23,921 nucleotides of DNA, taken from NCBI GenBank assembly GCA_946619065.1, contig CAMOLY010000001.1, forward strand, positions 1 through 23,921, read 5' to 3'. Position 1 is the first letter of the stretch. The number at the start of each line of letters is the position of its first letter. Both the position numbers and the translations under genes were made by a program. Below the pieces are notes generated by a model, which had not been told where the DNA came from, ran no database searches, and was given only the letters and a program-made list of their open reading frames with translations. Below, piece by piece: positions 4,185 through 23,921 of this stretch. The DNA is from an uncultured Clostridia bacterium. GTDB lineage: Bacteria > Bacillota > Clostridia > Oscillospirales > Oscillospiraceae.

Positions 4185-4390
4185 TTAAGGAGATGGTTTT
4201 ATCGGTTTTGTTCGCCACGCCGCTGGGGCTGGCAATGGTGGCCGGGATCCTCTGGCTGTTCCGGTACGGCTGGCGGGCGCTGCGGGCCGCTGTGCGGGAA
4301 CGCAGCCGAAGGACGGGGGCTTACCCCTCCACCGCTTCGCGGTCCCCCTCCCCTTGGCAGGGGAGGTCAGGACGGAGGACGCGGGGATGA
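4181..4390 (+). CDS. Small membrane protein with repeat-derived tail
   Basis: This 69-aa protein has one strongly hydrophobic segment (about residues 4-27), then a basic cytoplasmic stretch. From about residue 45 on, the protein is encoded by a family B dispersed repeat (GAYPSTASRSPSPWQG...), so the native C-terminus has been replaced or extended by the repeat. The start overlaps the upstream stop as ATGA. Its function is unknown; small phage membrane proteins can modify host physiology or superinfection, but nothing specific is visible. Confidence 0.6.
   Translation: MIKEMVLSVLFATPLGLAMVAGILWLFRYGWRALRAAVRERSRRTGAYPSTASRSPSPWQGRSGRRTRG
4313..4378 (+). repeat. Family B dispersed repeat (copy 1)
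   Basis: It contains the small hairpin CCGCTTCGCGG and the larger one CCTCCCCT-tggc-AGGGGAGG. Over its first 62 bases it differs from the copy at 16570 by one base (t/g after the second hairpin). It forms the 3' end of the small membrane gene, and its last bases (GGAGG) act as ribosome site for the next gene. Confidence 0.9.
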
Positions 4391-4563: not shown

Positions 4564-5035
4564 AGAATTCGGATGGATCGTAGATCTGGTACGATCCGGA
4601 AGAGACGTCGAGGACGGGAAGCTGTTGGACGCATGGAATTACGCAGCGGACGGAGTCAACGAGATGTACCGTCTCTGCAAGAGCCTGCTGGAGGGATTCC
4701 GGGAGCAGGCCAGGGTGATGCGGAAGATGGACGCGCTGATCGGCGAGAAGGACCGGCAGCTCAGCGAGAAGAACCTGCTCATATGGAAGCTGAACCGGAA
4801 GCTGCAGGATGGGACGGTCCGGGCCGAAGATCGGGGGACCACCTCATCCGGTCCTTCGGACCACCTTCCCCTCAAGGGGAAGGCTTTCGACGAAGGACGA
4901 GAGACGAGGGACGAGGACGCGAGGGATATGTCCGCTGTGGTCAGCGGCCACTACGGGACGGCGAAAGACGCTATGTGTCCATCTTTCTCGGAACCGGAGG
5001 ACGAGGGAACAGTCCCTGCGGAGGGGGCGGAATGA
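4550..5035 (+). CDS. Coiled-coil protein with palindromic repeats in its C-terminus
   Basis: This 161-aa protein has a helical, charged first part (about 1-95, heptad-like from about 50 to 92: REQARVMRKMDALIGEKDRQL) that suggests a coiled coil. From about residue 97 the sequence is low in complexity and repeat-derived: family A encodes TTSSGPSDHLPLKGKAF, purine-rich GAC-repeats follow, and family C encodes MSAVVSGHYG. The last 25 residues may be the old C-terminus. GGGGG precedes the ATG, and the stop overlaps the next start (ATGA). Function unknown. Confidence 0.7.
   Translation: MKDNREFGWIVDLVRSGRDVEDGKLLDAWNYAADGVNEMYRLCKSLLEGFREQARVMRKMDALIGEKDRQLSEKNLLIWKLNRKLQDGTVRAEDRGTTSSGPSDHLPLKGKAFDEGRETRDEDARDMSAVVSGHYGTAKDAMCPSFSEPEDEGTVPAEGAE
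4838..4887 (+). repeat. Family A palindromic element in a gene (copy 1)
   Basis: Two hairpins lie in order: GGTCC-ttc-GGACC and CCTTCCCCT-ca-AGGGGAAGG, framed by ACCACCTCATCC and CTTTC. The second copy (8817-8866) has GGCCC-tgc-GGGCC in the first hairpin, a paired change that keeps the stem. Read in frame it gives TTSSGPSDHLPLKGKAF. Confidence 0.9.
4928..4957 (+). repeat. Family C repeat (copy 1)
   Basis: ATG-TCCGCTG-tggt-CAGCGGCC-ACTACGGG. The 8-bp stem is damaged here by one mismatch (T for G) relative to the copies at 5428 and 16653. It lies in frame in the coiled-coil gene and encodes MSAVVSGHYG. Confidence 0.85.
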
Positions 5036-5217
5036 AGTGGTTCCGAATGAAGGGGCCGGGCGGGACGATCACCTGCAAGGGAAATTATGCCGGAGAAGCA
5101 ATCCGCGAAGCTTCCGAGCGCTGGGCTTGTGATCCGGAGACGATCGAGATCATCGGAGAGGATCCCTACTACGGAAGCGGAGAAAGGATTCCCGTTTCGG
5201 AGGAGGCAAGATGGTGA
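5032..5217 (+). CDS. Small unknown phage protein (61 aa)
   Basis: The ATG overlaps the previous TGA, and the gene runs to 5217. The product (MKWFRMKGPGGTITCKGN...EIIGEDPYYGSGERIPVSEEARW) has no motif I recognise. The ATGA coupling, the high-GC third positions and the 7-bp overlap with the next gene support it as real. It may be a small early phage protein acting on host functions, but this is not shown. Confidence 0.65.
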   Translation: MKWFRMKGPGGTITCKGNYAGEAIREASERWACDPETIEIIGEDPYYGSGERIPVSEEARW

Positions 5218-5375
5218 CAAAGATCCTGCCGACAGCATCAGACATCTGGGAGATCCGCAAGGGCGGAAAGGTTTGGGTCCGTTCGCCGGCTGCCAACTGC
5301 GGCTACGATGAGAAGACCCTGGCCGGCATGCGCAAGCGCGGGTACCGGCTTTACAAAAACGGGAAACCGGCATAA
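5211..5375 (+). CDS. Small basic unknown protein (54 aa)
   Basis: The ATG at 5211 has GGAGGAGG 6-9 nt upstream, and the frame stays open to TAA at 5373-5375. The product (MVTKILPTASDIWEIRKGGKVWVR...GYRLYKNGKPA) is basic with no recognised motif. It overlaps the gene before by 7 bp and is followed by a perfect hairpin. Its compact beta-like sequence would fit a small DNA- or protein-binding phage factor, but this is a guess. Confidence 0.65.
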   Translation: MVTKILPTASDIWEIRKGGKVWVRSPAANCGYDEKTLAGMRKRGYRLYKNGKPA

Positions 5376-5379
5376 AAGA

Positions 5380-5410
5380 GCCGCCTCCGATGAAGCAGAT
5401 CGGAGGCGGC
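5380..5410. terminator. 12-bp perfect hairpin between genes
   Basis: GCCGCCTCCGAT (5380-5391) and ATCGGAGGCGGC (5399-5410) form a perfect stem around a 7-base loop. Rightward there is no U-tract after it (GGAGGGGCC follows); leftward TCTTTTATG follows. It could be a terminator whose U-tract was displaced by the family C repeat just downstream, or an attenuator or processing site ahead of the Rad50-like gene. Confidence 0.5.
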
Positions 5411-5427
5411 GGAGGGGCCTTGCAAAC

Positions 5428-5457
5428 ATGGCCGCTGTGGTCAGCGGCCACCACGGG
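5428..5457 (+). repeat. Family C repeat (copy 2)
   Basis: ATGGCCGCTGTGGTCAGCGGCC then ACCACGGG. The 8-bp stem GGCCGCTG/CAGCGGCC with loop TGGT is perfect. It lies in the leader of the Rad50-like gene, upstream of its ribosome site. Confidence 0.85.
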
Positions 5458-5494
5458 CCGCCTCCACTATATCACAATCATGGAGGAATATCAA

Positions 5495-7795
5495 GTGAAA
5501 AGTATTACGATTGACAAGCTGTCCATCCGGAATTTCAAGGGCTGCGGCAGCCTGGATCTGGACTTCGGCGGAAAGAACGCCGCAATCTACGGCGACAACG
5601 CAACTGGGAAGACGACGGTTTACGACGCGCTGACCTGGCTGCTGTTCGGCAAGGACAGCCGCGGGAGCTCTGATCAGGAGACTATCAAGCCGCTGGACAC
5701 GGAAGGCAACGTCCGGGATCACGAAGCTGTTACCTGTGTAGAGGCGGTGCTTGGGGTCCGGGAAGATGGCGCACAATGTGCGCCGCTGCAGCTCAGAAAG
5801 GAAATGCAGGAGAGCTGGGTCACCCGGCGGGGCAGCGCTCAGCCGGTCTATGACGGCAACGATTTCCGATACTACGTGGACGACGTACCCATGAAAAAGA
5901 ATGAATTTTCCAAGCGAGTCGGCGAGTTGGTGGAGGAAGACACCTTCCGGTTGCTGACCTCCGTGACTGCGTTTGCCCAGGATATGCCCTGGAAGAAGCG
6001 CCGGGAAATTCTGTACGACATGAGCGGCGCCGCATCGCTCAGCGACCGGGCCCTGCTGCAGACGGCTGCCAGGGAGAATGCTGAAGATTTGGACCCTGAC
6101 ACCAAACAGAGGTTCAGCGAGTTGGCCGAGCTGATGGGCAGCAAGAGCCTGGACGATCTGAAGAAGATTCTGGATCAGAAGCGGAAAAATCTCATGGGAA
6201 CCAGGGATCAGACTCCTGCCCGTATCGACGAGCTGACGATTCAGGAGGCCAAGATGGCCATGCTGGACTTTGACAAGGCGGAGCTGCAAAAAGCTGCGGC
6301 AGAGGACGCAATCCGGAACGCCCGGGAAGAGCTGGCCAGGCTGCAGGGGATTGCAGGGCACCTGGCCCCTACGGAGGCAGGGCCTACGGCGGCGGAGATT
6401 GGGCTGCGGGAGCTGGAGGCCGAAAAGGCGTCCTATGAAGCTGCCTGGTCTGTGCAGCGGAGCGCGATCCTGGATAAGCAGGCTGCCCTGATCTTCGAAA
6501 ACGCCGCCTGGGTACGGGCCCAGCGGGATGAAGCCCTGACTGTAGAACGGGAAATTCTGGAACTGGACGCGAAGAACCGTACCTATCGGCAGGAACAAGC
6601 CGCGGCTTTGCCAGATCTGAACGCGCTGCAAAGCGCTGCGGATGCTCTGGCAGACAGAATCCGCGGGCATCAGGATTCCTTCCGAGAGTTGGAGGCGGAG
6701 GCCTCCAAGTGGGATGAGTTGGTGGAGCAAAATCGCAAGGAATGGTTGGAGGCCGACCGTGTCGCGTTCAGCGGCGGGAATTGCCCGACCTGCGGCCAGC
6801 AGCTGCCACTGGAGCTGTTGGCAGAGGCCAAGGCCAAGTTTGAAACAGGAAAGGCCAGACGGCTGAAGGACATTGAAGGCCGGGCGGAAATCAACCGCGG
6901 CAACGGGGAACGCTGCCGCAAACAGGCAGAAGATGCCCGGGCAAAGGCAGAATTGGCGAAGCCGACCCTGGACAAAGCCCTGGACGATCTGGAAGCCGCG
7001 AAAAAGCAGCCCAGGGAGCTCCTGGACCTGGACGGTTATCAGGAGCGGCGCGAAGCCCTGATGGTCAAGCGGGAGGCCCTGGAAGGGCAGGAACACATGC
7101 CGGACTACAAGGCGCGGCTGGAGCCCATCCTGGAGGAACTGGCAGCGCACGACAGCAGGAAGGCTATGACGGGGTATGAGGACCGCCGTGCTGCTTTGCA
7201 GACAAAGTTGGACGCAGAACTGGCGCAGGCAGCCCGCGAGGCCGACGAGAAGGCCCGTCAGAAGGATCAAATTCAGGACGAGATTCTGGACGTCCAACAG
7301 TACATCAAGGAGCAGGAGGCCGTCCACGGGGACGCTGTGCGGGTTCTGGGGCAGAGGGTTGTTCTGGACTACACCCGGAAGCGGATTCAGGAGCTTCGAG
7401 AGGCCCAAAAGGCGGCCGGCGCCGAATTGGAGCAGGTTGCCGCGGCCCTTTATGCAATGGAAGCCTTCATCCGCTGGAAGACCCGTTTTGTGGAAGGCTC
7501 CATCAACGATTTGTTCCGCATTGTCACCTTCCGGCTGTTCCGGGAGCAGGCCAACGGCGGCCTGGAGGAGCGCTGCGACGTGGTAGTAGACGGCGTGCCC
7601 TACAATGCTCTGAACAACGGAACCAGGATCAACGCCGGCTTGGACATCATTCGTCGATTGGCGGAGCACTATGGCGTCCGGGTACCCCTCTTTGTTGACA
7701 ACGCCGAAGGGGTGACCAGACTGGAGGACGCCGGAACTCAGGTAATCCGGCTGGTGGTTTCTGCGGAGGACAAGCGCCTGCGTGTGGAAGTTTAG
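5495..7795 (+). CDS. Rad50/SbcC-like AAA ATPase with zinc hook
   Basis: This 766-aa SMC-type ATPase has Walker A GDNATGKTT (33-41), long coiled coils (about 215-420 and 445-665) split by a zinc hook CPTC (C430, C433), and Walker B LFVDNAEG (D735, with E738). It probably dimerises through the hook and handles DNA ends in phage recombination or replication. GTG at 5495 is chosen: GGAGG is 8 nt upstream, and the alternative ATG at 5480 contains that site. An upstream in-frame extension from 5390 crosses hairpin and repeat sequence. The family usually pairs with an Mre11/SbcD nuclease; none is seen, but a metallo-beta-lactamase-fold protein lies two genes downstream. A small palindrome (5768-5784) inserts DGAQCAP-like residues. 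Confidence 0.92.
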   Translation: MKSITIDKLSIRNFKGCGSLDLDFGGKNAAIYGDNATGKTTVYDALTWLLFGKDSRGSSDQETIKPLDTEGNVRDHEAVTCVEAVLGVREDGAQCAPLQLRKEMQESWVTRRGSAQPVYDGNDFRYYVDDVPMKKNEFSKRVGELVEEDTFRLLTSVTAFAQDMPWKKRREILYDMSGAASLSDRALLQTAARENAEDLDPDTKQRFSELAELMGSKSLDDLKKILDQKRKNLMGTRDQTPARIDELTIQEAKMAMLDFDKAELQKAAAEDAIRNAREELARLQGIAGHLAPTEAGPTAAEIGLRELEAEKASYEAAWSVQRSAILDKQAALIFENAAWVRAQRDEALTVEREILELDAKNRTYRQEQAAALPDLNALQSAADALADRIRGHQDSFRELEAEASKWDELVEQNRKEWLEADRVAFSGGNCPTCGQQLPLELLAEAKAKFETGKARRLKDIEGRAEINRGNGERCRKQAEDARAKAELAKPTLDKALDDLEAAKKQPRELLDLDGYQERREALMVKREALEGQEHMPDYKARLEPILEELAAHDSRKAMTGYEDRRAALQTKLDAELAQAAREADEKARQKDQIQDEILDVQQYIKEQEAVHGDAVRVLGQRVVLDYTRKRIQELREAQKAAGAELEQVAAALYAMEAFIRWKTRFVEGSINDLFRIVTFRLFREQANGGLEERCDVVVDGVPYNALNNGTRINAGLDIIRRLAEHYGVRVPLFVDNAEGVTRLEDAGTQVIRLVVSAEDKRLRVEV
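5768..5784. repeat. Palindrome inside the Rad50-like gene
   Basis: GGCGCACAATGTGCGCC has 7-bp arms with a 3-base centre and 15 of 17 bases matching 3882-3898. It encodes residues within GVREDGAQCAPLQLRKE, between two strands of the N-terminal ATPase lobe. From memory, relatives have a shorter turn at this point, which suggests insertion. Confidence 0.55.
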
Positions 7796-7843
7796 GGCCG
7801 ATGTGGTCATACATTCGTGACTCTACGAGTTCGGCCCCTACGG
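7795..7843 (+). repeat. Family D dispersed repeat (copy 1)
   Basis: GGGCCGA at one end pairs with TCGGCCC at the other, and the element ends CCTACGG. It starts at the last base of the Rad50-like stop codon. It is nearly identical to 16481-16528, with differences only in the loop and final arm. It fills most of the gap before the NGO0469-like gene. Confidence 0.88.
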
Positions 7844-7866
7844 ATAAAATGAAAGGAGATTAAACC

Positions 7867-8526
7867 ATGAGTCTCAAAATCAAGGACAGAGCAAAGCCCG
7901 CGGTACCGCCGGTTGAGCCGGGCGTGTACATGGCAGCCTGCGTCGGTGTCATCGACCTGGGCGAGCAGTATTCCGAGAAATACAAGAATTACAGCAACAA
8001 GGTGATGCTGACCTTTGAGCTGCTGGGTGAGACCGTGGAGATCGACGGCGAGCAGAAGCCCCGTCAGATTTCGAAGATATTTACCTTTGCCACCGGGCAG
8101 AGGTCAGGCCTCCGGAAATTCCTGCAGAGCTGGGACGGAAAGCAGCTGTCAGACGAGCAGGCAGCAGAGGAAGATCTGAGCCAGCGCCTGGGCCGGACCT
8201 GCCAGCTCCAGGTGGTGCTCAATGAGACCGGCGACAAAGCCAACATCGACAACATCATGGCGCTGCCGAAGGGCATCAAGCTGGACAAGCCACAAAGCGA
8301 GCTGATCCTGTTTGACCTGGACGAATTCGACCAGGCCACCTTCGAGAAGCTGAGCGACTGGACGCGGGAGACCATTCAGAAGAGCAGCCAGTGGCAGAAG
8401 GAACACGCCAGCACGGAGACGATCCAGGTCAACCCGGAGACGGGGGAGGTTTTGGAGGACGGCGGGGCGGGCACTAACTTCGCGTCGCAGGCTCCCACGA
8501 ATCGGGACGGAGGTGTGCCGTTTTGA
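7867..8526 (+). CDS. NGO0469-family phage replication protein, ssDNA-binding-like
   Basis: This 219-aa protein resembles the phage replication protein family NGO0469. Cues are PGVYMAACVGVIDLGEQ near the N-terminus, KVMLTFELLGETVEIDGEQKP, ISKIFTF, LRKFLQSWDGKQLSDEQ, LGRTCQLQVV, IMALPKG and a LSDWTRETIQKS helix. It ends with an acidic, flexible tail and VPF, as single-strand binding proteins often do to recruit partners. AAAGGAG precedes the ATG. It lies between a Rad50-like ATPase and an MBL-fold protein, so it probably coats or delivers ssDNA in phage recombination/replication. The family assignment is from memory of the motif pattern. Confidence 0.82.
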   Translation: MSLKIKDRAKPAVPPVEPGVYMAACVGVIDLGEQYSEKYKNYSNKVMLTFELLGETVEIDGEQKPRQISKIFTFATGQRSGLRKFLQSWDGKQLSDEQAAEEDLSQRLGRTCQLQVVLNETGDKANIDNIMALPKGIKLDKPQSELILFDLDEFDQATFEKLSDWTRETIQKSSQWQKEHASTETIQVNPETGEVLEDGGAGTNFASQAPTNRDGGVPF

Positions 8527-9353
8527 CGTTTGAGGCTTTGGCTTCGAGCTCTCACGGCAACGCCTACATTGTTTCGGACGGGCAGTCCCGCATTCTGCTG
8601 GAGTGCGGGCTTGCCTTCCGGACGCTGCAAAAGACAGCGGGGTTTTCGCTGTGCGAGTTCGATGGGGTTTTGCTGACCCATGAGCACAAGGACCATGCCC
8701 GGTCGGCCGGGGAGTTGATCCGCAGCGGACAGACCGTATACATGAGCTGCGGGACGGCCCTGGCTCTGGGCCTGGCGGAGGAACGGCCGCTTTCAGCTGT
8801 GGTGCAGGTCCGAAGTACCACCTCATCCGGCCCTGCGGGCCACCTTCCCCTCGAGGGGAAGGCTTTCCCGGTGGATCCGGAGAAGGCTGTGGCTGTGGTG
8901 GGCTGCCCGGGGGTGGAGCTGGTAGAGCACAGGGAGCAGTTCCGGGTTGGCAGTTTCGATGTGACAGCCTTTGCCACATACCACGACGCCGCGGAGCCGC
9001 TGGGCTACGTGATCCGATCCCGGGCGGACGGGGACGTTCTGGTTTTTGCTACCGACACGGTGAACCTTCGGTATCGGTTTCCCGGGCTCAGGTTACTGGC
9101 TATCGAGGCCAACTACGACAGAAACATCCTGGAACGATCTCAACGGCTGCCGGACAAAACCAAGGATCGGATCCGCAACACCCACATGGAGATCGAAACC
9201 CTCTGCGACATCCTCCGTGGCATGGATCTGCGCGAGTGCCGGGAGGTCTGGCTCCTGCATCTGTCGGATGCCATGAGCCACGAGGGAAACTTCATCAACA
9301 AGGTGCGGCGGGCGGTTCCGCCCTGGGTGACGGTTCGAGCCGCGGCGAGATAG
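8523..9353 (+). CDS. Metallo-beta-lactamase-fold protein, YycJ-like possible nuclease
   Basis: This 276-aa protein has the metal-site motif LTHEHKDH (H53, H55, D57, H58), YHDAAEPLGY (H154), ATDT (D178), a likely H221 and LHLSD (H246), so the full two-metal site seems intact. The order fits phage and YycJ/WalJ-type MBL proteins, some of which are DNA exonucleases. The start is TTG at 8523, with GGAGG at suitable spacing and a TTGA overlap with the previous stop; the N-terminus MTFEALASSSHGNAY matches the usual family start. Residues about 98-117 (STTSSGPAGHLPLEGKAFPV) are encoded by family A repeat copy 2, inserted in frame in a loop between the metal motifs. Together with the Rad50-like ATPase it could replace SbcD. 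Confidence 0.88.
   Translation: MTFEALASSSHGNAYIVSDGQSRILLECGLAFRTLQKTAGFSLCEFDGVLLTHEHKDHARSAGELIRSGQTVYMSCGTALALGLAEERPLSAVVQVRSTTSSGPAGHLPLEGKAFPVDPEKAVAVVGCPGVELVEHREQFRVGSFDVTAFATYHDAAEPLGYVIRSRADGDVLVFATDTVNLRYRFPGLRLLAIEANYDRNILERSQRLPDKTKDRIRNTHMEIETLCDILRGMDLRECREVWLLHLSDAMSHEGNFINKVRRAVPPWVTVRAAAR
8817..8866 (+). repeat. Family A palindromic element in the MBL gene (copy 2)
   Basis: Hairpins GGCCC-tgc-GGGCC and CCTTCCCCT-cg-AGGGGAAGG lie in the same order and reading frame as the copy at 4838-4887, encoding TTSSGPAGHLPLEGKAF. About 45 of 50 bases match copy 1. The host protein stays open and keeps its metal ligands. Confidence 0.9.
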
Positions 9354-9364
9354 GAGGTGCTGAA

Positions 9365-10048
9365 ATGGGATTCAGCCGGAAACAATTCACATTTTATCGT
9401 TCGTATATCGACGCTGCCGCATCGCTTACCGTGAAGCAACGGGGCGAATACCTGGTTGCTTTGATCCAATACGCGCTGGACGAAATCGAGCCTGATTGTA
9501 TATCTCCAGCGGCACGGACCGCATTTGAGATTGTCAGGCCCTTCCTCGACGTGGCCAGACGCAAGGCCCAGGCTGGGAAATCGGGCGGTGAGGCCAGCGG
9601 AGAAGCCCGAAGCAAAACCGAAGCAAACCGAAGCAAAACGAAGCAAAACGAAGCAAACACGAAGCAAGGGGAAGAACAAGTAAAAGAACAAGTAAAAGGT
9701 AAAGGGGAAGGAGAAGGGGATGCTTCCCCCAGTTGGAAAAGCAAAGAGTCTTTTACCGATGTCTTTGACAAGCTGATGAGAACAGGTGTTTTTATGTCGG
9801 ACAAGGACAACCTGGACTGTGAGGCGCTGTGTGCGGAGTACGGAACAAGGGCGGTCACGGAGGCAATCGAGCGAGCGAGAGAACAGAACGCGCCGAGATG
9901 GAGCTACGTCCGGGCCATCGTCACCAGCGGCGGGGTCGGAGGCGGGCATTCAGGCGGGCGCGGCGGATTCATCCGGCACGGAGACAGCATGAGCCCGATG
10001 ATGCAGCAGGCCGTGGATCGGATGCTCGCTGAAGACGACGACAAATGA
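9365..10048 (+). CDS. DnaD-like phage replication initiation protein
   Basis: This 227-aa protein has an N-terminal DUF6291-like domain (FYRSYIDAAASLTVKQRGEYL...about 1-78), a low-complexity basic linker (about 80-118: repeated EA/SKTKQ), and a C-terminal DnaD/DnaB_2-like helical segment (ALCAEYGTRAVTEAIERAREQNAPRWSYVRAIV, about 155-190) before an acidic end. Such proteins recruit replisome or helicase loader to the phage origin. AGGAGG precedes the ATG at 9365; the in-frame upstream extension lies inside the MBL gene. The linker DNA carries six phased direct repeats, so the origin may lie in this gene, as in lambda O. Confidence 0.85.
   Translation: MGFSRKQFTFYRSYIDAAASLTVKQRGEYLVALIQYALDEIEPDCISPAARTAFEIVRPFLDVARRKAQAGKSGGEASGEARSKTEANRSKTKQNEANTKQGEEQVKEQVKGKGEGEGDASPSWKSKESFTDVFDKLMRTGVFMSDKDNLDCEALCAEYGTRAVTEAIERAREQNAPRWSYVRAIVTSGGVGGGHSGGRGGFIRHGDSMSPMMQQAVDRMLAEDDDK
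9608..9697 (+). repeat. Phased direct repeats, candidate replication origin
   Basis: CGAAGCAAA (with variants) begins at 9608, 9619, 9629, 9639, 9649 and 9660, i.e. steps of 11, 10, 10, 10 and 11 bp: one helical turn each. They are followed by two exact GAACAAGTAAAA units (9674-9685, 9686-9697) and an A/G-rich stretch to about 9720, with low melting energy for this GC-rich phage. The array lies in the linker of a replication initiator gene, as lambda's origin does in O. It also encodes a basic linker, so a purely coding cause is possible. Confidence 0.6.
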
Positions 10049-14357: not shown

Positions 14358-14591
14358 ATGCCTGGAGGTTACAGATGGCAGTCCGCCGATGCGGAATGCC
14401 CGTATTACAAGGATTCAAACCGAAATTCAATCCGCTGCGAGGGGCTGCTGGACGCTGACGGCTGCTCCACGATCCAGCTCAACTACGCGCTGAGCAGGGA
14501 CCGGGCGTGGCACGAGAAGACCTACTGCGAAAAGTCATATCGGTTCTGCCCGATCTATGCTGCGGTCATGAGCCTGAAGGACGAGGGATAG
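14358..14591 (+). CDS. Cys-rich small phage protein upstream of terminase
   Basis: This 77-aa protein has CPYYKDSNRNSIRCEG near the N-terminus and further Cys (CSTIQL, YCEKSYRFCPIY). This pattern, ECPYY...SIxCEG...YC...CPIY, recurs in small proteins placed before terminase genes in Clostridial phages, so it is probably a conserved late-gene or zinc-binding protein. AAGGAGGGAAT precedes the ATG. The stop TAG is also the first unit of the TAGGCAA heptamer array. Function unknown. Confidence 0.8.
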   Translation: MPGGYRWQSADAECPYYKDSNRNSIRCEGLLDADGCSTIQLNYALSRDRAWHEKTYCEKSYRFCPIYAAVMSLKDEG

Positions 14592-14626
14592 GCAACAGGC
14601 AATAGGCAATAGGCAATAGGAGACGG
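14589..14626 (+). repeat. TAGGCAA heptamer array (copy 1)
   Basis: TAGGCAA, CAGGCAA, TAGGCAA, TAGGCAA, then TAGGAGACGG. The first TAG is the stop codon of the Cys-rich gene. Because the unit is 7 bases, TAG appears in successive frames. An almost identical array starts at a stop codon at 20494. GAC-rich purine tract follows (14627-14655). Confidence 0.9.
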
Positions 14627-14655
14627 TGGACGCGGGACGAGAGACGGGACGCGGG

Positions 14656-16528: not shown

Positions 16529-16569
16529 GACAGGCCGCCAGTCGGGCCGCCATACGAGGCGCGGATGTG

Positions 16570-16635
16570 GACGGGGGCTTACCCCTCCACCGCTTCGCGG
16601 TCCCCCTCCCCTTGGCAGGGGAGGGCAGGACGGAG
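16570..16635 (+). repeat. Family B dispersed repeat (copy 2)
   Basis: It is nearly identical to 4313-4378 over the first 62 bases, including the CCGCTTCGCGG and CCTCCCCT/AGGGGAGG hairpins. The GAC-rich tail that follows is similar but longer. Near identity over 12 kb distance means recent copying or gene conversion. Confidence 0.9.
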
Positions 16636-16652: not shown

Positions 16653-16681
16653 ATGGCCGCTGTGGTCAGCGGCCACTACGC
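16653..16681 (+). repeat. Family C repeat (copy 3)
   Basis: ATGGCCGCTGTGGTCAGCGGCC then ACTACG. The stem is perfect, as in copy 2 (5428). Two shorter variants ending CACTACGAGG and CATTACGGGG follow to about 16720. Confidence 0.85.
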
Positions 16682-18182: not shown

Positions 18183-20496
18183 ATATCCGCACTTGCAGTT
18201 CCGCGGGAAGCAGAAGACGGTGCTCACGGAGTTCCGCGGGCTCAACCACACGCCAACCTGCGAGCCTGGGGAGTGGTACGAGGCAAAGAACGTGAGCAAC
18301 ATCGAGTATCCGATGCTGACGACCCATGGGGACCGGGCGGCGGTGACGGAGCTGGACGGCTGCGCCGTTCCGACGCGGGACATTTTGGGATTCTGCGCGT
18401 CGGAACCGCCGGCCTATCTGATGAGCGACGGACATCTGCTGTGCGGCGGAAACGAGGTCGTGCTGGCCACGACGACGGAGATCGGGTGGACGGCGACGTG
18501 CACCATGATCCTGGACGAATCAAATTCCCAAGCTGTCTTCGTCATCACGGACGCCGGCGCTGCGGCGGTGGCGGGTCGGCTGGGGCTGATCGGCGGAAGC
18601 GGGAAGGCGACGTTTGTCTGCGTTGGGGATGAGACGGCTTACGATTTCGACAGCAGCCGGTGGGACGTCTTCGACAGCAGCGCCAACAAGCTGGATTCCG
18701 GCGTGAAGCTCTCGGACTACGGCATCACGCGGACCGACGCCCGCGGACCGGCGTGCGCCGGAGAGGAAGCCTTCACGGTGGACGTGCAGGAGGTGGTGCT
18801 TAACGCGCTGACGGGGCCGAGGCAGATGGTGCAGATGGGGGCCTGGGTGCTGGTCTGGCCGGACAAATGGTTCTGCAACGCGGCCAAGCTGGCCAGCGGG
18901 CTGGCAATGGTCCCCGGCGAGGACTACGGCAGCATGGCGCTGGACAATCAGGCAGAGGCCAGCCAGAACCACCCGGTCTACACAATGCTCTGCCATCTGG
19001 ACGGGACGGCCTACAACACGTCCAACGCGAGACCGGCGGGGGTTTCCGCCAGCGGGAGGGTCTACTTCGGCAAGGACGAGCCCTACAATCCGAACAACAC
19101 GGCATACGCGGCCGGTGATCTCTGGCTGAGCGTCAACTCGGACTACACAGAGATCGAGGCGCGGGTGTGGGACACGGACATGGGCTGGATGCCGACCACG
19201 GATCTGGGCGTCATGCTCTGGAGCAGGGGAATCGCGGCGGGCGTCAAGGAGGGCTACCGGGTGACGGTGGCCGGCTGGGACGGAGCCGGCGCGCTGAAAG
19301 CGGTCCGCGAGCGGGTCAACGGGGAGCACCCGGTGCTGGGCGTAGATCCGGACGGCGACTGGATGATTCTTGGTGACTGTTTTGTAACCACGTCCGGAAC
19401 GATGAAGATGACGTCCGGCACGGTGTCCGTGGGAATGGACATTCCGGACATGGACTATGTGGTGGAGTGCCAGAACCGGCTGTGGGGCTGCTATTACGGC
19501 CAGGACGCGGAGGGGAACGTGCTCAACGAGATCTACGCCTCCGCCCTGGGAGATTTCCGGAGCTGGCGGCAGTACGAGGGACTGGCCACGGACGCCTGGA
19601 CCGCATCCAGAGGCTCGCCGGGGCCGTTTACAGGGGCGGCGGTGCTGGGCAGCAACCCGCTGTTTTTCAAGGCGGACAGTCTGGAGAAGGTTTTCCCGTC
19701 CGCGACCGGGGCCCATCAGATCCAGACGGTCAGCCTCAACGGCGTGCAGGCAGGGTGTGCGAAGAGCCTGGTGGTGATCGACAACGCGCTGTACTACAAA
19801 TCGCCGCTGGGCGTGTGCGTCTACACCGGGAGCCTTCCGAGACAGATTGGGTACAAGCTGGGCCAGGAGGCCACAGAATACGGGCTGGCTACGGCAGGAC
19901 GCAGCGGCAAGCGGTACGTCATCGACATGCAGGGGCCGGACGCGCGACGGCTGTTTGTGTACGACACCGAGACCGGCTACTGGCAGGCTGAGGACCCGGT
20001 GTACAGCTATCTGTACACCGACGAGACGGACGTGCCCTGTCTGGTGACATTCGGCGACGAGCTGTACGCCACGCGAAACGGGGCGCTGCTGCAGCTGGTG
20101 CGGAACGCGGGATACGAGGAGGGAACCGAACTTCGGCCCATCCCGCGGCCAGGCAAGCCGACGATTCGGACACCGAAAGAGGGAGCGGAATGGTACGCAA
20201 TCACGGCAAATCTCGGCGTGGAGCACGGGCAGCGGAAGTATGTCTCGCGGATCCGGATCCGGGTGCGGCTCTACGATTTCAACCTGTTCCGCGTCTACAT
20301 CTCCTACGACGACGGGCAGACCTGGGAGCTGAAATACAACAAGAGCAATCTCTTTGCCGGGACGTCTGCGCAGGAGCCAAAAACGATTTGCCTGTATCCG
20401 CGGCGGTGTGACCGGTTCCGGCTGAAATTCGAGGGCGCGGGACGGTTCGAGCTGCAGATGATCCAGTGGGACACGGAGACGGGGAGCGATGTTTAG
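18175..20496 (+). CDS. Large tail-hub or stabilisation-like protein (gp10-type)
   Basis: This 773-aa protein is beta-rich, with blocks NRLWGCYYGQDAEGNVLNEIY, ALGDFRSWRQYEG, GVQAGCAKSLVVIDNALYYKS and LFVYDTETGYW that match, from memory, a large structural protein common in short-tailed Clostridial phages and likened to P22 gp10 (tail hub/stabilisation). The repeated beta strands suggest a beta-propeller. ATG at 18175 has GGAGG 5 nt upstream and overlaps terL by 8 bp. The stop TAG at 20494 is the first unit of a TAGGCAA array. The function is inferred from context (between terL and portal) and resemblance. Confidence 0.75.
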   Translation: MVKYPHLQFRGKQKTVLTEFRGLNHTPTCEPGEWYEAKNVSNIEYPMLTTHGDRAAVTELDGCAVPTRDILGFCASEPPAYLMSDGHLLCGGNEVVLATTTEIGWTATCTMILDESNSQAVFVITDAGAAAVAGRLGLIGGSGKATFVCVGDETAYDFDSSRWDVFDSSANKLDSGVKLSDYGITRTDARGPACAGEEAFTVDVQEVVLNALTGPRQMVQMGAWVLVWPDKWFCNAAKLASGLAMVPGEDYGSMALDNQAEASQNHPVYTMLCHLDGTAYNTSNARPAGVSASGRVYFGKDEPYNPNNTAYAAGDLWLSVNSDYTEIEARVWDTDMGWMPTTDLGVMLWSRGIAAGVKEGYRVTVAGWDGAGALKAVRERVNGEHPVLGVDPDGDWMILGDCFVTTSGTMKMTSGTVSVGMDIPDMDYVVECQNRLWGCYYGQDAEGNVLNEIYASALGDFRSWRQYEGLATDAWTASRGSPGPFTGAAVLGSNPLFFKADSLEKVFPSATGAHQIQTVSLNGVQAGCAKSLVVIDNALYYKSPLGVCVYTGSLPRQIGYKLGQEATEYGLATAGRSGKRYVIDMQGPDARRLFVYDTETGYWQAEDPVYSYLYTDETDVPCLVTFGDELYATRNGALLQLVRNAGYEEGTELRPIPRPGKPTIRTPKEGAEWYAITANLGVEHGQRKYVSRIRIRVRLYDFNLFRVYISYDDGQTWELKYNKSNLFAGTSAQEPKTICLYPRRCDRFRLKFEGAGRFELQMIQWDTETGSDV

Positions 20497-20531
20497 GCAA
20501 TAGGCAATAGGCAATAGGCAATAGGAGACGG
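20494..20531 (+). repeat. TAGGCAA heptamer array (copy 2)
   Basis: Four exact TAGGCAA units (20494-20521), then TAGGAGACGG. The first TAG is the stop of the 773-aa gene. It has the same order and end as 14589-14626. TAG occurs in all three plus-strand frames within 21 bases. Confidence 0.92.
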
Positions 20532-20536
20532 GGGAT

Positions 20537-20566
20537 GCGGGACGTCGAGGACGCCGTCCCCTACGG
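20537..20566 (+). repeat. Family E palindromic repeat (copy 2)
   Basis: GGGACG and CGTCCC arms replace GGGCCG and CGGCCC of copy 1 (14700-14729) with pairing kept. It is followed by CCTACGG. It lies directly downstream of the heptamer array, the same order as at the first locus, although the first locus also has a terminator between. Confidence 0.85.
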
Positions 20567-22951: not shown

Positions 22952-23921
22952 ATGAGATACGACGAGAAAAAGCTGACGGCGGGACAGAAGCCGTCCGCAC
23001 AGCAGAGCTACGTCCAGCAGGCTGGAGGCGCCGCAGGGGCTGCATTCCAGCGGGCAAGGGCTAACCAAGGATTGCCGAGCGGGCAGCAGAGCTACGTCCA
23101 CCAGGCGGGAGCTGCCGCGGGGGACGCTTTCCGGCGAGTGGGGCTGCCTGGCGCACAGCAGAGCTACGTCCACCAGGCGGGAGCTGCCGCGGGGGACGCT
23201 TTCCGGCGAGTGGGGCTGCCTGGCGCACAGCAGAGCTACGTCCACCAGGCCGGAGCTGCCGCGGGAAATGCGTTCCGGCAGCAGGCGGCGGCGCAGCAGG
23301 GGAACGCGCCGACCGCAGCGCAGAACGGGTACGTCAGTCCTTATGCGGACAACATGGACAGTCTGCGGCAGCAGATGGGGGATCTGGCAGACCAGTACGC
23401 AAACCGCGGACCGTTCCAGGTGAACCTGGCCAACGATGCCCTCTACAAACAGTACGCGCAGCAGTACGCCCAGATGGGCAAGCGCGCCATGCAGGACACC
23501 ATGGGGCAGGCCGTGGGGCTGACCGGCGGCTACGGCAGCTCCTACGCACAGAACGTTGGGCAGCAGGCGTACAACCAGCAGATGCAGGGGCTGAATGACG
23601 CGGCGCTGAGCATCTACGACCGGGCCAAGGCCCGCTGGGACGCCGAGGGCGACCAGATGCTGCGACGGCTGGAGCTGCTGGGCAATCAGTACGAGCGGGA
23701 GCGCCAGGCGGACATCGACGCGTATGGCCGATACCGGGATCAGGTGTCGGATGATCGGTACGCCGACGAGCGGGACTACAACCGGGATTGGCAGCAACGG
23801 CAGTGGGACCGGGAAGGTCAGTGGCATGACCAAGAGTTCAATTACAACGCTGAGCAGGACCGGATTGCAAACGATTGGCGTGAACGGGAATTTGGCCGTG
23901 AAGGTCTGTGGCACGACCAAG
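22952..23921 (+). CDS. Repeat-rich virion protein, 3' end cut
   Basis: The frame opens with ATG at 22952 (AAGGAGG upstream) and is still open at the window end, so at least 323 residues. Residues about 17-116 are four repeats of QQSYVHQAGAAAGDAFRRVGLP type. A helical part follows with QMGKRAMQDTMGQAVGLTGGYGSSYAQNVGQQAYN, common in Clostridial phage virion proteins of unknown role, then a charged region with repeating RDW/REG-WHDQ units. It follows the portal, so it may be an ejected internal or scaffold-like protein. The assignment is uncertain. Confidence 0.8.
   Translation, partial: MRYDEKKLTAGQKPSAQQSYVQQAGGAAGAAFQRARANQGLPSGQQSYVHQAGAAAGDAFRRVGLPGAQQSYVHQAGAAAGDAFRRVGLPGAQQSYVHQAGAAAGNAFRQQAAAQQGNAPTAAQNGYVSPYADNMDSLRQQMGDLADQYANRGPFQVNLANDALYKQYAQQYAQMGKRAMQDTMGQAVGLTGGYGSSYAQNVGQQAYNQQMQGLNDAALSIYDRAKARWDAEGDQMLRRLELLGNQYERERQADIDAYGRYRDQVSDDRYADERDYNRDWQQRQWDREGQWHDQEFNYNAEQDRIANDWREREFGREGLWHDQ
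23000..23299 (+). repeat. Tandem coding repeats, 72-bp unit
   Basis: Units begin with CAGCAGAGCTACGTCCA at 23000, 23084, 23156 and 23228. The two units 23084-23155 and 23156-23227 appear identical over 72 bp; the first is 84 bp long and diverged, and the fourth diverges in its second half. A 24-codon unit keeps the frame. Exact identity of the middle pair means a very recent duplication. Confidence 0.9.

Follow-up and report, generated by a model that had tools for sequence, protein, structure and literature searches.

A palindromic repeat dispersed in gut Clostridia and their phages is read in frame within unrelated genes

In this study, we analyzed a 23,921-nt stretch of DNA from an uncultured Clostridia bacterium (contig C1, hereafter the window), in which two copies of a short palindromic repeat, here called element A, lie in the same reading frame of two unrelated phage genes. 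Element A is a dispersed family that is not specific to phages. Only a minority of its copies are clearly inside genes; those keep the reading frame, use two of the six frames with few exceptions, and, where the position was tested, are found in loops or linkers. The most likely explanation is that element A is a palindromic repeat, non-autonomous and dispersed among gut Clostridia and their phages, and that it works like the Rickettsia palindromic elements (RPEs) and the intragenic repetitive extragenic palindromic elements (REPs). The window belongs to a 57%-complete genome (1.08 Mb, 152 contigs), and a domain search revealed integrase, terminase and portal genes on it, which is why we regard it as a prophage or phage contig.

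The first copy (4838..4888, + strand) consists of the box CACCTCATCCG, hairpin 1 GGTCCTTCGGACC (4850-4862), hairpin 2 CCTTCCCCTCAAGGGGAAGG (4864-4883) and the tail CTTT, and encodes TTSSGPSDHLPLKGKAF within a gene for a 161-aa phage protein (4550..5035, + strand). The second copy (8817..8867, + strand; hairpin 1 GGCCCTGCGGGCC at 8829-8841 and hairpin 2 CCTTCCCCTCGAGGGGAAGG at 8843-8862) encodes TTSSGPAGHLPLEGKAF, which corresponds to residues 99-115 of a metallo-beta-lactamase (MBL)-fold protein of 276 aa (8523..9353, + strand, TTG start; PF12706, 1.1e-11). A repeat search of the window gave 92% identity between the copies over 51 nt, far beyond chance, given that exact repeats reached no more than 13-16 nt when the window was resampled 50 times by a first-order model. 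Both copies lie within open reading frames (ORFs) and are translated as TTSSGPxxHLPLxGKAF, so that the observation of one palindrome in the same frame of two unrelated phage genes, made earlier in a sequence-only reading of this DNA, was confirmed. The copies differ at four positions (4852, 4856, 4860 and 4874 in the numbering of copy 1). Position 4852 is opposite 4860 in hairpin 1 and the pair changes from T-A to C-G, while the remaining two changes are in loops; what had been counted as two substitutions that keep pairing does keep it, but amounts to one compensated base pair. Each copy folds into two hairpins (-22.4 and -24.5 kcal/mol for copies 1 and 2), with fold z-scores of -4.07 and -2.88 on the + strand and -3.09 and -2.04 on the - strand. 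This one compensated pair is a minor instance of a broader trend, in that hairpin 1 is altogether different from one copy to another, orthologous sites included.

Throughout the family, element A has the same layout, namely a conserved box, a hypervariable hairpin 1 and a conserved hairpin 2. The conserved parts are CACCTCATCCG and CACCTTCCCCTCAAGGGGAAGGC(TTT), the consensus termini are CACC.. and ..GGAAGGC(TTT), and the flanks are hardly conserved, save for a partial 5' extension within the genus. Measured from box 1 through hairpin 2, the 191 host elements spanned 45-63 nt. In the genome of the window itself, the core of A was found at 18 places with 0-1 mismatch, some of them inside host genes; core matches with two mismatches (on contigs C28 and C90) may be partial copies. 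The proposed likeness to RPEs held, whereas the idea that the element is special to a temperate phage did not. The core CACCTTCCCCTNNAGGGGAAGG was present in 18 of the 23 genomes of the genus (1-51 copies each) and in 24 of 59 relatives, and its reversed control was absent from all 59 genomes. The full pattern occurred in 24 of 295 genomes, representing 17 of the 149 genera sampled in the order, and in 93 viral-contig stretches (80 of which were listed). Named genomes contributed at least 118 stretches with A, mostly from gut and rumen Clostridia among the 80 listed; strain genomes outside Clostridia were Selenomonas ruminantium S137 and Bifidobacterium vansinderenii Tam10B. The family, for which a search of Oscillospiraceae and their phages had been suggested as a check, extends through the order and beyond it. 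The window's genome, 57%-complete and in 152 contigs, might raise the suspicion of an assembly or binning artefact of metagenome-assembled genomes; we give this practically no weight, as the same element appeared in independent assemblies, viral contigs and the two strain genomes, and as six species carry an insertion at a single site of tsaD.

Some features of the arrangement of copies were also observed. Copies of A were found in pairs about 134-136 nt apart, often inverted (G000:C37:7141-7435 and several places in G019 and G012), suggesting a composite unit. Contigs C55 and C99 of G006 (L412 and L415) contained A in tandem arrays with a period of 177 nt and a common spacer. In the Bifidobacterium locus (L258), which belongs to another phylum, a similar CCTTCC..GGAAGG sequence was located shortly downstream of A.

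Frame usage was analyzed in host DNA, comprising the genus, a small number of loci from family and order relatives, and coaE and tsaD loci that had been retrieved deliberately. This set held 205 copies of A, of which 191 had flanks that could be used. With the threshold at its loosest, a coding signal was seen on both sides in 74 of the 191 copies, on one flank in 65 and on none in 52. Among the 74 two-sided copies, 45 had both flanks in one frame (34 without stops and 11 with), 23 had them on one strand in different frames, and 6 on opposite strands. The 34 clean in-gene copies comprised 17 forward copies read in the frame that gives TSS (8 in coaE, 5 in tsaD and 4 in others), 15 reverse copies read as GADEV and 2 others; coaE and tsaD orthologues, mostly from the deliberately retrieved loci, made up 13 of the 17 TSS copies. 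In-gene copies were 45, 46, 47, 51, 53, 54, 56 or 63 nt long, not always a multiple of three, and their flanks were still in one frame. Two earlier low-power coding tests on overlapping sets (9 clean copies, with 8 TSS and 1 other forward; 7 clean copies, with 5 TSS, 1 other forward and 1 reverse non-GADEV) were superseded by this test with longer flanks.

Across the 191 copies, the forward frames were open in 92, 94 and 73% (phases 0, 1 and 2, respectively) and the reverse frames in 29, 85 and 4%. TSS is phase 2, the least open forward phase, so stops alone would not favor it; GADEV is phase 1. With host sites collapsed by hand and phage cases added, 13 of 16 forward sites were TSS (binomial 2.8e-4 at p = 0.36): the MBL gene and the first protein of the window, coaE, tsaD, L416, L422, L419, L094/L132, L098, L116, L180, L172 and L216. 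L172 and L098 were the weakest of these, and the first protein was counted on the support of its homologue P0124, its flanks being below the pass level of the frame test. The three non-TSS sites were L123, L453 and L019. Seven of ten listed cases were used; L089 (just behind a stop codon) and L102 (repeat-rich, with no supported gene) were dropped, and L216, from a named-genome contig, was counted as phage by a phage-like gene, its reverse copy entering neither count. On the reverse strand, the 15 host copies collapsed to 12 sites (L409 and L427 merged; L443, 71 aa, is weak), all 12 of them GADEV (approximately 0.02 at p = 0.72, calculated by hand as 0.72 to the 12th power), a result nearly explained by stops. 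The frame preference was clear for forward copies and modest for reverse ones, and may reflect tolerance of hydrophilic peptides.

Comparison with homologues showed that the sites also exist without the insert. Database matches to the 161-aa protein numbered six, itself included; it had no Pfam match, and a tblastn search against named phages gave no match. Its homologue P0124 (116 aa) has no insert and lacks about 45 residues net at the site in the protein alignment, and P0125 carries another hairpin-1 peptide, SSGAYAPPSPQGEGF, at the same site. The alignment with P0124 placed an in-frame insert at approximately 4808..4972 (+ strand), made of element A, a GACGAGGGACGAG-type repeat and the palindrome CCGCTGTGGTCAGCGG. 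The insert is in frame and leaves the gene intact, as proposed, but it is a composite of A and two other repeats, not a single element.

A database search at E <= 0.001 gave 2,884 relatives of the MBL-fold protein, with 232 aa a common length among the best 120; relatives in Bacillus phages are annotated as metal-dependent hydrolases and lie near SbcC-like and RecT-like genes. In the alignment of 45 of the best 120 relatives, most had no insert, and one loop was expanded in the closest relatives, with differing sequences. The element A peptide was found in this loop only in P0001 and P0002, so no aligned homologue supported the earlier concern that the peptide might exist apart from the DNA palindrome; the DNA behind the loop was viewed for the window copy and for one relative (G005). 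Other proteins had GAQCAPLQ-type peptides there (P0003, P0012, P0014 (twice), P0016 and others), an NRQQATGD-type peptide (P0009) or a ERIATGSASPRNDK-type peptide (P0024). The G005 locus, which we take for a related prophage, matched the window at 87% identity in the 1.8 kb leading to the loop and at 76% in the 1.5 kb that follow; in the loop, where the window has A, it had GGCGCACAATGTGCGCCGCTAC. Nearest solved folds were of the metallo-beta-lactamase family, e.g., 1zkp and YhfI. In an AlphaFold model, residues 99-115 were mostly coil between strands 91-93 and 114-116, with a predicted local distance difference test (pLDDT) score of 53-79 for the block. Together with the position after the HxHxDH stretch, this agrees with the surface loop that had been predicted.

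Element A was also identified in genes of cellular function. Inserts were found in DNA polymerase I (polA), where one profile match of the domain search spans the insert; in lysine--tRNA ligase, in the linker before the tRNA-binding domain; in MtaB, near the profile end; in lipoate--protein ligase, between domains; in a pseudouridine synthase, beyond the matched domain; in an HI0933-type flavoprotein, whose Pfam match spans the insert; in the linker of an EF-G-like/NYN protein; and in RlmD (rlmD) and a copper-type P-ATPase (copA). The genes at L409 and L429 had no domain match at the limits used. For phage portal, ParA and lysin genes, both filled and insert-free orthologues were found. In tsaD, 6 of the 23 genus genomes had A in the stretch after the conserved INLIH and 17 were without it; the insertion point corresponds to a 4-residue turn of structure 6n9a.

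In coaE, 17 of 30 loci had both anchors (16 distinct, L355 repeating L333). The loop region varied from 201 to 453 nt, a multiple of three in all 17 rows; three rows were nearly empty and eight had A in at least four hairpin types, and other loops contained family B, a second two-hairpin repeat of the window, or GGRPMAAP, CHSERSEES, GSDAxIAPVIAAGNDAA and GEQCSPLQ repeats. Among the 120 listed database relatives of CoaE, where both anchors were found, the stretch had 24-181 residues, the longer ones with several repeat-derived peptides. In the AlphaFold model of P0128, residues 107-117, between a helix and a strand, were below pLDDT 50. Several unrelated palindromes share one loop in coaE, and the same holds for the MBL gene. 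The coaE loop (L330-L359, P0127-P0200) appeared to take up several repeat families together, and one relative (L339) had a family B-like element in frame in coaE.

These observations bear on the view that selection acts on the encoded peptide, as a protein module spreading for its own action. Although such a module could explain why TSS was used at 13 of 16 forward sites when three forward frames are usually open, reverse copies do not encode this peptide but another, the frame in which box 2 is read varies among copies, homologues lack the peptide, and unrelated palindromes sit in the same loops; we regard this view as very improbable.

Variation among copies was concentrated in hairpin 1. 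The 328 distinct copies of A contained 224 distinct hairpin 1 sequences, mostly self-pairing, with a mean folding energy of -5.98 compared with -1.81 for shuffled letters, and 71% were below -4 kcal/mol vs. 14% of shuffled ones. In 26 distinct elements with an 11-nt hairpin 1, tested with 500 shuffles, 96.8% of positions were paired (shuffled, 88.3%) and covariation was 0.218 (shuffled, 0.069; 0 of 500 as high), a signal abolished by sliding the pairing partners. Pairing exceeded the highest of 300 shuffles in nine of ten length classes, and only equaled it in the 10-nt class (five members). Hairpin 2 was nearly constant (46 distinct sequences). The paired change noted between the two window copies is borne out family-wide by covariation. 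As the family shows a frame bias as well, the refuting outcome named beforehand, genome copies with neither frame bias nor paired substitutions, did not appear in the data examined.

Strong paired variation could also be explained by selection for RNA structure if A were a functional RNA element, such as a terminator, mRNA stabilizer or processing site, a few copies of which overlap genes. Only 31 of 191 host copies were clean in-gene copies at the middle threshold, and a neighboring stop codon lay 0-14 nt from the element end in 10 of 21 copies between same-strand frames, both as this explanation would have it. Its patchy occurrence (0-51 copies among species of one genus), the presence of in-gene copies in both orientations and the 0 Rfam matches at the gathering threshold in the window are less easily accommodated, and we consider an RNA element unlikely, though it deserves more credit than the other alternatives to a mobile repeat.

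Orthologous tsaD sites revealed different hairpins at one place. Four species with common extra flank residues (QKL..A..xR) had either a 17-nt hairpin 1 (TCACGGCTGCGCC..., two species) or an 11-nt one (GCCCTGC..., two species), and two other species with common YGADA.. had a 29-nt and an 11-nt hairpin 1, respectively. The common flanks argue for one insertion followed by hairpin replacement, through either conversion from other copies or re-insertion. Hairpin 1 was thus apparently replaced in place. A bolder proposal, which we put forward tentatively and think somewhat doubtful, is that A is an active hairpin-exchange system, in which recombination or template switching would swap the whole hairpin 1 at fixed sites in core enzyme and phage genes, keeping boxes and frame, as an in-place cassette evolution, and phages would move A between hosts of different classes and phyla.

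Under our preferred reading as a dispersed, non-autonomous repeat, the copying of A would take place on DNA, with fixed box, variable hairpin and fixed hairpin duplicated together as one unit, and A would be actively mobile with the help of a mobilizer. Insertions in genes would survive only with the frame intact and the peptide in a loop or linker, where a disordered, presumably neutral peptide (TTSS..HLPLKGKA forward, LPLEGK..GADEV reverse) would be tolerated; because loops and linkers tolerate inserts, the same loops would also collect other palindrome families. Pairing within the hairpin would be maintained at the nucleic-acid level, either by selection or by the way in which A is copied. 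Where a site is fixed, the whole hairpin would be exchanged, probably through conversion from another copy or through re-insertion.

Several points weigh against this reading. Movement of A was not observed, and no mobilizer was found. Of the 46 Y1-transposase matches listed, 21 were viewed with their surroundings (20 stretches), which contained no complete A and, in two cases, a lone box-1-like match. No target duplication was recognized in the insert-free sites read, which are too diverged for a short duplication to be seen. Stops were present within about 60 nt of the element in 11 of the 45 one-frame copies, some of which may accordingly have broken genes or be intergenic, and a viral copy, L145, was assigned to neither of the two usual frames but to another reverse one. 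Further pair types in the 11-nt hairpin 1 were not above shuffles (114 of 500), changes in hairpin 2 were one-sided or unpaired in 28 cases vs. 6 compensated, and differing hairpins at one site could be separate insertions.

A related possibility is that A is a REP element mobilized in trans by a Y1 transposase of the REP-associated tyrosine transposase (RAYT) type. It would account for the hairpin architecture and the dispersed and paired inverted copies. Y1 matches were present in 26 of 59 relatives and somewhat commoner in copy-rich genomes of the genus (6 of 8 with at least 8 copies of A vs. 6 of 15 with fewer), which leaves room for a role of Y1 in trans. Nevertheless, the consensus ends carry neither GTAG nor CGTC, the stretches around Y1 matches were without complete A, and G007 had 24 copies and no Y1 match (82% completeness); we rate this possibility as low, slightly below that of an RNA element.

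Other repeats were identified in the window. The palindrome CCGCTGTGGTCAGCGG (4932..4947, no strand assigned), inside the composite insert, had further copies at 5432-5447 and 16657-16672; the three copies are followed by CCACTACG or CCACCACG and resemble the hairpin plus CTAC repeats of coaE loops. A strict script detected one CTAC-type palindrome in the window, and a direct string search more. A palindrome of another family, GGCGCACAATGTGCGCC (5768..5784, no strand assigned), is in frame (REDGAQCAPLQL) in an SbcC-like ATPase ORF (5390-7795), whose homologue in Bacillus phage Pascal is about 5 residues shorter at this site; the same palindrome also occupies the MBL loop in the G005 prophage. 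Family B, a parallel two-hairpin repeat (CCACCGCTTCGCGGT + CTCCCCTTGGCAGGGGAG), is located at 4311..4377 and, 99% identical, at 16569..16635 upstream of the likely terminase start (both + strand). Tandem repeats of AGGCAATAGGCAATAGG (D3) lie at 14582-14653 and 20487-20544, and a repeat like this may underlie the NRQQATGD peptides of MBL relatives. A 72-nt repeat has four copies at 22989-23288, and CGAAGCAAAA is repeated in tandem at 9608-9679.

Most known protein-coding palindromes come from Rickettsia, with scattered examples among REPs; in this analysis, they turned up repeatedly within one genus of gut Clostridia and in its phages. CoaE loops offer natural replicates (the same loop, different inserts and near-empty relatives) for studying enzyme tolerance of insertions, and a hairpin that changes completely yet stays paired provides a handle on the copying mechanism. 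For annotation, odd segments such as HLPLKGKA, GGRPMAAP, CHSERSEES and GAHCAPLQ look like translated repeats. No paper on element A was found by element sequence or family terms within the open-access literature searched.

Among known systems, RPEs are described as dispersed palindromes, many in frame in unrelated genes, with several families per genome (PMC10969869, PMC3733652). Element A shares their dispersal in intergenic DNA and ORFs and their in-frame insertion in unrelated genes with insert-free homologues. However, RPEs are about 150 bp in length, compared with 45-63 nt for A in the host set; A is without the CGTC end tag of the RPE-4/RPE-6 type; and, unlike RPEs, it occurs in Clostridia and their phages, with a hypervariable hairpin 1 and several families sharing one loop. 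GTAG/CGTC-tagged REPs (e.g., of Opitutus terrae and Thauera) are short hairpins mostly behind or between genes, some of them inside ORFs, including repair and tRNA-modification genes (PMC3733652). Element A is likewise a short hairpin repeat with some intragenic copies, but it has no GTAG/CGTC tag, occurs in phage genes, and, in contrast with RAYT-associated REPs, had no complete copy near the Y1 matches examined. The coding palindromes of Nematomorpha mitochondria, described as inverted repeats in genes that were gained and lost between species (PMC6649704), are in organelle genes and have much longer perfect arms, whereas A forms a family that is dispersed and has conserved boxes. PARCEL repeats, described as palindromic coding DNA thought to spread horizontally (PMC2996958), are tandem arrays of a 25-residue protein motif, whereas A is a single or paired insert in the genes examined. 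Miniature inverted-repeat transposable elements are marked by terminal inverted repeats and a target-site duplication; the consensus of A showed no inverted termini. Because A is without the end tags of RPEs and REPs and is shorter than RPEs, we did not file it as a member of either, the comparison with RPEs having been made by features; in its dispersal and in-frame insertion, it resembles the RPEs.

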